IMG/VR virus record: IMGVR_UViG_3300007960_000279
Location: 1 to 20,001 of that record
DNA length: 20,001 nt
Reading direction: 5' to 3' (one strand)
From: a virus
Positions 16,207-17,141 of the stretch are shown here, one piece after another. The notes beneath the pieces were generated by a model that was not told the DNA's origin, made no database searches, and worked only from the letters and a program-made list of their open reading frames with translations. Position 1 is the stretch's first letter; each line of letters begins with the position of its first letter. Both the position numbers and the translations under genes were made by a program.

Positions 16207-16227
16207 TTTTGAAAATTTTAAAAATTG
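16207..16227 (-). repeat. AT-rich 21-bp direct repeat, copy 1 (before 95-aa gene)
   Basis: An exact 21-bp match to 16960-16980. On the coding strand it reads CAATTTTTAAAATTTTCAAA plus one A. It lies eight bases upstream of the ATG at 16198, where no Shine-Dalgarno sequence exists. It may act as a promoter -10 region or a ribosome-protein S1 binding stretch. Confidence 0.7.
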
Positions 16228-16240
16228 CAGATAGTCAGTT

Positions 16241-16960
16241 CTATCGTGCAGTTTGAAAAAGAATTTTGGCTATCTGTGGGCAAATCGAGTTGCCTAAAGC
16301 CTTTACTCGCTCCACCCTGTTGGGTAGCCCATCAACCACTCGCAAAACATCGGGCTCAGTTTGCCAGTTAGGGAACTCCCCTCTTTTACCTGTGCGCAAA
16401 GATAATATTTCTTCATCATGTTGATTTGTGACTTGCTCCCAACTGGGCCGCAATCCTTGTACTCTGATGCCCTCGGGGTTCCCCACATCCTTGGCAATAA
16501 TCCAGACTCTAGATCTTCGTTGGTGAGACATCTGGGCTGCAGCTGGTATAACAATCGGCCTGCAGGCGTATGAGATACTTTCCAAGTCAGCCAGCACTGC
16601 ATCGAGACCCAGTGTGATGTGCCCAACAACATTCTCAGCCAAAACGAAAGCGGGTCTTGCGGATGCAATGACTCTAAAGCCTTCTTTCCAGAGATCACGG
16701 TCATCTTTCTTGCCTCTGCGCTTCCCGGCATAGCTGAATGGTTGGCAGGGATATCCGAGAGTGATCCAAGTAACTCCATTGTATGATTCTCCATCCAGGT
16801 TTCTGATGTCTTCATGAACTAATACTCCAGGGAAATTTTTTCTTAAAATTTTTTGCGCATATGGATCAATCTCGCAAAATGCAATTGTTTTTATGCCTGC
16901 CATCTCAGCTGCCAGTGCAAATCCTCCAATGCCTGAAAAAAGATCTAGATGTGTCTGCAT
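16241..16960 (-). CDS. Cytosine-C5 DNA methyltransferase (239 aa)
   Basis: A Dcm-type enzyme with the family motifs in order: motif I DLFSGIGGF (6-14), motif IV GYPCQPFS with catalytic C72, motif VI AENV with E109, motif VIII QRRSRVWI (147-154), and a C-terminal motif X ALGNSICPQIA. The target-recognition region between motifs VIII and X is short, so the enzyme is small (239 residues against a typical 300-400) and probably monospecific; the target sequence cannot be read. No partner endonuclease is present, so it is probably an orphan enzyme protecting phage DNA from host restriction. Transfer of methyl groups is from S-adenosylmethionine to cytosine C5. The start has no ribosome-binding site but follows the AT-rich repeat directly. 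A second frame inside this gene is described separately. Confidence 0.95.
   Translation of the reverse strand: MQTHLDLFSGIGGFALAAEMAGIKTIAFCEIDPYAQKILRKNFPGVLVHEDIRNLDGESYNGVTWITLGYPCQPFSYAGKRRGKKDDRDLWKEGFRVIASARPAFVLAENVVGHITLGLDAVLADLESISYACRPIVIPAAAQMSHQRRSRVWIIAKDVGNPEGIRVQGLRPSWEQVTNQHDEEILSLRTGKRGEFPNWQTEPDVLRVVDGLPNRVERVKALGNSICPQIAKILFQTAR
16303..16815 (-). CDS. Candidate overlapping frame within the methyltransferase gene (170 aa)
   Basis: An open frame on the same strand, offset by one base from the methyltransferase. Its residues 57-170 carry patterns I recognise from phage proteins deposited as independent entries: SFWLRMLLGTSHW, CWLTWKVSHTPAGRLLYQL, NEDLESGLLPRMWGTPRASE and a final LSPMFCEWLMGYPTGWSE. 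The first 55 residues look random. The start codon is arbitrary and no ribosome-binding site was checked convincingly. The pattern could reflect real dual coding, an ancestral frameshift, or database proteins that are themselves out-of-frame translations of methyltransferase genes. I list it as a candidate, not an established gene. Confidence 0.3.
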   Translation of the reverse strand: MKTSETWMENHTMELLGSLSDIPANHSAMPGSAEARKMTVISGKKALESLHPQDPLSFWLRMLLGTSHWVSMQCWLTWKVSHTPAGRLLYQLQPRCLTNEDLESGLLPRMWGTPRASEYKDCGPVGSKSQINMMKKYYLCAQVKEGSSLTGKLSPMFCEWLMGYPTGWSE

Positions 16961-16980
16961 TTTGAAAATTTTAAAAATTG
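16960..16980 (-). repeat. AT-rich 21-bp direct repeat, copy 2 (before methyltransferase)
   Basis: Second exact copy of the element at 16207-16227, 753 bp away in the same orientation. It touches the methyltransferase ATG. A TTAAAAT stretch inside could serve as a -10 region and would place transcription start at or next to the ATG, giving a leaderless message. Confidence 0.7.
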
Positions 16981-17141
16981 GCTGGTGGGGGTACTAGAAT
17001 AATAAAGGCCCGGGGCCGGGTGCCCCCCGGGGGGGGTCTCGCCTGATCCTGGCGGCTGTTGCCCTTTTTGTTGCCCTTTTGCTTGATTTCACCGCAAATC
17101 CCTTGTTTTTCTAGGGATGTCGATTCCTTATCTAGCCACAT
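16971..17141 (-). CDS. Possible small basic protein before methyltransferase (56 aa)
   Basis: The minus strand is open from an ATG at 17141 to a TAA at 16971, too short for routine listing. The product begins MWLDKESTSLEKQGICGEIK, continues with two KGN units encoded by the direct repeats, then QARPPPGG and a hydrophobic FIILVPPP end. An AAAAAGGGCAACAGGTA stretch precedes the ATG and offers a loose ribosome-binding site. The frame passes through the GC-only block, which makes the C-terminal half suspect. It would end 11 bases before the methyltransferase. No function is recognised; the open frame may be chance. Confidence 0.3.
   Translation of the reverse strand: MWLDKESTSLEKQGICGEIKQKGNKKGNSRQDQARPPPGGTRPRAFIILVPPPANF
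17007..17036. other. GC-only 29-of-30-base block with hairpin
   Basis: All but one of 30 bases are G or C, including six C followed by eight G. CCCGGGG at 17009-17015 pairs with CCCCGGG at 17025-17031. On the minus strand the stem is followed by CC then TTTATTATT, so it could end transcription arriving from the terminase small subunit gene. Long homopolymers make this spot prone to sequencing error. Confidence 0.5.

Follow-up and report, generated by a model that had tools for sequence, protein, structure and literature searches.

A nested +1 frame inside a phage C5-cytosine methyltransferase gene probably encodes the second chain of a naturally split enzyme

The window analysed here is the whole stretch of 20,001 nucleotides taken from IMG/VR virus record IMGVR_UViG_3300007960_000279, and is a fragment of a phage genome in which portal, major head and terminase genes are present. 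Its minus strand carries a C5-cytosine DNA methyltransferase ORF, and a second minus-strand ORF, offset by +1, lies wholly within it. The features of the locus are as follows.

16241..16960, minus strand: C5-cytosine DNA methyltransferase (outer) ORF, 239 aa, with motifs I-VIII and X (PF00145, phrog_363)
16825..16828, minus strand: GGAG, a Shine-Dalgarno-like sequence located 9 nt before the ATG at 16813-16815
16303..16815, minus strand: nested ORF, 170 aa, ATG start, phrog_1008 family (1.1e-26), the proposed second chain
16493..16525, minus strand: methyltransferase motif VIII, HQRRSRVWIIA, from the sequence and the alignment to M.HhaI
16367..16492, minus strand: region from motif VIII to the WQTEPDV end, constrained in relatives mainly in the nested frame (pooled sister pairs)
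16306..16359, minus strand: nested-frame LSPMFCEWLMGYPTGWSE, a motif IX-like end, from the profile match to the in-frame C-halves of single-chain methyltransferases
16274..16300, minus strand: motif X of the outer frame (ALGNSICPQ), lying past the stop codon of the nested ORF

In profile searches the outer ORF matched PF00145 (6.8e-39) and phrog_363 (1.1e-63), and M.HhaI was aligned by methyltransferase residues 5-156 (5.8e-15), indicating that the catalytic N-half with motifs I-VIII is present. The PF00145 match stops at profile position 165 of 324. Sequence and profile comparison showed that motif IX is absent from the outer chain and that the motif IX-like segment is in the nested frame; 'LSPMFCEWLMGYPTGWSE' and '...DVLRVVDGLPNRVER' are encoded by the same DNA. 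The nested ORF had no match in Pfam or NCBIfam, and its only family assignment came from phrog_1008. The three nested-frame peptides quoted in a preliminary description of this DNA are all present in the window.

Two features flank the locus. An exact 18-base repeat, TTGAAAATTTTAAAAATT, occurs at window positions 16209-16226 and 16962-16979, for which the chance expectation is none. Its copies lie directly upstream of two minus-strand genes, one of which is the methyltransferase gene, and the repeat is possibly a shared leader or promoter element. A C/G run at 17020-17040 is intergenic and also upstream of the methyltransferase gene.

Homologues of the nested ORF were found in 97 phage records and in at least 574 IMG/VR stretches, and the phrog_1008 profile was matched by 108 of the 108 members of one alignment (A4). 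Two loci from the phages collection (L022 and L024) were left out of the alignment used for folding. The nested frame sits at +1 in nearly all loci, and no copy of the family was found that lacked a methyltransferase: 150 of the 150 matching loci overlap one. The arrangement is very widespread in phages, and most genome records annotate one frame only. Earlier annotators had called the nested ORF an internal gene in Paenibacillus phages Lily and Diva and a separate protein in K1ind3. Gene 58 of phage N15 likewise contains a nested ORF (L231:1381-2106). A description of the family was absent from the open literature searched, which is a weak negative since subscription papers lay outside its scope. 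Three conventional plasmid methyltransferases used as controls (L325-L327) have motif IX in frame and gave no nested match. The nested ORFs also tend to have start signals of their own: a Shine-Dalgarno match of at least 5 nt was found at the best nested-start candidate in 58% of 129 non-redundant loci, versus 16% of controls, for which as many NTG codons were taken from other positions in the same genes.

As the second base of each nested codon is the third base of an outer codon, a conserved nested protein implies that synonymous sites of the outer gene are constrained. The nested frames of 64 non-redundant loci were scored with profiles built without the scored loci, and compared with nulls in which the outer gene was either recoded synonymously, using the codon usage of each locus, or subjected to codon permutation. 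The mean nested-frame score was 237 bits versus 60 bits after recoding and 74 bits after permutation, and in 64 of 64 loci the real score was above all 60 nulls for that locus. Note that the +2 frame score was raised too (215 versus 99-110 in the nulls), as would happen under any synonymous-site constraint. As these 64 loci had been found through nested-frame similarity, a second sample was fetched using as query the methyltransferase N-terminus alone, which lies upstream of the nested ORF, and non-truncated loci were counted. The +1 frame was open in all 78 of the non-truncated phage loci. These loci contained no +1 stops over the overlap, where 7.0 were expected after synonymous recoding, with a mean probability of 0.004 of the frame being open, and the real +2 frame had 13.3. 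The nested frame is neither chance nor shadow, and the claim in the preliminary description of a second conserved-looking frame inside the methyltransferase gene is confirmed.

Selection was estimated by simple counting, rather than by a codon model, in 28 independent sister pairs, using two-frame ratios and bootstrapping over pairs. Upstream of the nested ORF 59% of substitutions fell at the third position, whereas in well-aligned blocks between motifs VIII and IX 220 of the 337 substitutions fell on the first base of outer codons, where the nested codons have their wobble position. In the upstream flank, which has no nested ORF, omega was 0.16 for the outer frame and 0.70 (0.52-0.92) for the nested frame. 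Over motifs IV-VIII the values were 0.15 for the outer frame and 0.30 (0.23-0.38) for the nested frame, and between motifs VIII and IX they were 0.69 (0.49-1.1) and 0.15 (0.12-0.21), respectively. Downstream of the nested stop they were 0.24 for the outer frame and 0.58 (0.39-0.88) for the nested frame. Therefore, both frames are held over motifs IV-VIII, and conservation of the middle chiefly serves the nested protein. Purifying selection acts on both frames as protein; between motifs VIII and X nested selection is strongest and the methyltransferase frame is nearly relaxed. Dual coding, which had been one of the outcomes proposed from the sequence, is supported by this selection in both frames together with the recoding tests. 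The same description had named freely varying synonymous sites, along with overlap of every match with a methyltransferase, as the result that would refute its idea: every match does overlap one and no standalone copy was found, yet synonymous sites do not vary freely and the nested frame is under purifying selection.

Actinophage relatives indicate what the nested chain corresponds to. DLane gp65 is a single chain in which residues 1-458 match phrog_363 and residues 334-463 match phrog_1008 (1e-72), and Rebeuca gp80/gp79 and Andrew gp43/gp44 have the same two halves as separate genes overlapping at +1. The nested-family profile aligned with the actinophage C-halves (probability 98.5, E 3.7e-15), and the alignment ends in EW(L/M)MG.P.GW. 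Propionibacterium phage B22 gp50 is a single chain carrying this segment in frame, and its PF00145 match extends to position 321 of 324, which places the segment where motif IX is expected. A census of loci fetched by the C-half gave 27 single-chain loci and 49 split at +1 with overlaps of at least 60 nt; the few C-half loci without an N-half were all at contig ends. These in-frame relatives were reached with a hand-typed 144-aa probe, and the evidence is the records found rather than the probe. At the level of sequence profiles, the nested chain and the C-half of single-chain C5 methyltransferases are homologues, and nothing in the single-chain enzymes examined corresponds to the N-terminal half of the nested chain.

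Taken together, the nested overlapping frames probably encode a naturally split phage C5-cytosine methyltransferase. The outer frame would give a catalytic chain composed of motifs I-VIII, a poorly conserved stretch and then motif X. Ribosomes would start independently inside the outer gene and translate the +1 frame into a second chain, which would supply motif IX plus the variable region between motifs VIII and IX, and a single enzyme would form from the two chains. Target recognition in C5 methyltransferases normally lies between motifs VIII and IX. We infer translation of the nested ORF, assembly of the chains, enzyme activity and the presence of target recognition in the nested chain. A broader reading is plausible but tentative, namely that a large phage clade keeps its specificity region only in the nested frame, such that catalytic and recognition parts evolve on the same DNA and fused, overlapping and nested forms are interconvertible.

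Enzymes of this kind are already known, as the window has the layout of M.EcoHK31I, although it is classed with that enzyme by motif layout and not by sequence homology. In M.EcoHK31I (YGGCCR), a two-polypeptide C5 methyltransferase, Lee, Kam and Shaw reportedly found in 1995 that the large ORF contains the small one in another frame, as in the window, and that both were needed in vitro. Its large chain has motifs I-VIII and X and its small chain motif IX only (PMC3404938), a division that sequence and profile comparison also gave for the window. The predicted recognition domain of M.EcoHK31I has been placed in the large chain (PMC3404938), whereas in the phage family constraint on the variable region comes from the nested frame; a further difference is that the window system is in a phage. 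M.AquI (CYCGRG), a two-subunit C5 methyltransferase, is divided inside its variable region, beyond motif VIII (PMC3404938), and has motif X together with motif IX in its small subunit, as do the actinophage split pairs and unlike the window. The actinophage 'DNA methylases' DLane gp65, Rebeuca gp80/gp79 and Andrew gp43/gp44 have halves homologous to those of the window but occur as one chain or as two partly overlapping genes with motif X in the second half. Phage ShiLan likewise has a second frame inside a methylase gene, but this out-of-frame HNH element is an inserted homing endonuclease (PMC11855218) unrelated to the nested ORF of the window. The m5C methyltransferases of Paracoccus aminophilus prophages have been reported to show relaxed specificity when cloned (PMC3925955).

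Structures were predicted for the nested chain and for a naturally occurring single-chain relative (L256). On its own, the nested chain gave a model of low confidence (pLDDT 69.6, pTM 0.36), and a PDB search with that model returned no match. The L256 model had pLDDT above 90 at residues 1-160 and at about 295-380 (motifs IX and X), and its closest fold was M.HhaI (E 5e-15, 406 columns, rmsd 12.8, a full-length value too large for an exact superposition of motif IX on M.HhaI to be claimed). This model supports the assignment to this enzyme class, and its IX-X end is predicted with confidence. The variable region, residues 165-272, was of low confidence and thus a folded recognition domain there stays putative.

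An alternative that we consider unlikely is that the protein made from the nested frame is real but has a role of its own, such as regulation or counter-defence, rather than being a methyltransferase subunit. The selection tests show just that the nested frame is protein, and the nested N-half, which lacks both a solved homologue and an equivalent in the single-chain enzymes examined, would fit such a role. However, single-chain methyltransferases carry the nested C-half in frame, split ones have it as their second half, and no nested copy was found without a methyltransferase. The two meaningful protein families first suggested for this stretch are most likely two parts of one enzyme, which the preliminary description had not recognised. 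Programmed +1 frameshifting that fuses the catalytic N-half to the nested C-half is less probable still. It would accommodate the nearly constant +1 offset, the known single-chain versions and the relatives with permuted frames, but constraint is seen in both frames across motifs IV-VIII, before a shift could be of use, and nested starts are preceded by start signals more often than controls are. The C-terminus-swapping frameshift of the preliminary description is not needed in the window, because the shared DNA shows constraint in each of the two frames and the nested ORF begins at a start codon of its own. Although every match overlaps a methyltransferase and the conserved nested motifs coincide with conserved methyltransferase motifs, we reject the notion of a database artefact and regard as extremely improbable a shadow ORF whose similarity simply follows from codon bias and the conservation of the methyltransferase, because both openness and similarity were destroyed by synonymous recoding and motif VIII-IX substitutions gather at the nested wobble position.

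Given that split C5 methyltransferases were already known, the notable part of the nested arrangement is its breadth and the evidence for selection: it ranks among the clearer examples of long gene overlaps in which both frames are under selection, seen at hundreds of phage loci. The split-enzyme reading gives an explanation to phrog_1008, a large family without a Pfam model, and implies that records with single-frame annotation miss half of a probable enzyme. Recoding such methyltransferase genes for tests would silently destroy the nested partner. Should recognition reside in the nested chain, then the parts of one enzyme that catalyse and that confer specificity are evolving on shared bases.

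Several relatives depart from the common arrangement. In L011, L012/L013, L120 and L144 an indel spreads motif IX, motif X and the two N-halves over three frames, and in L120 a GA repeat lies at the frame junction. The permuted frames of L011-L013, L120 and L144 may be mutants, assembly errors or programmed shifting. L012 and L007 have additional in-frame sequence between methyltransferase motifs III and IV, and by eye the L012 insert resembles an HNH endonuclease.
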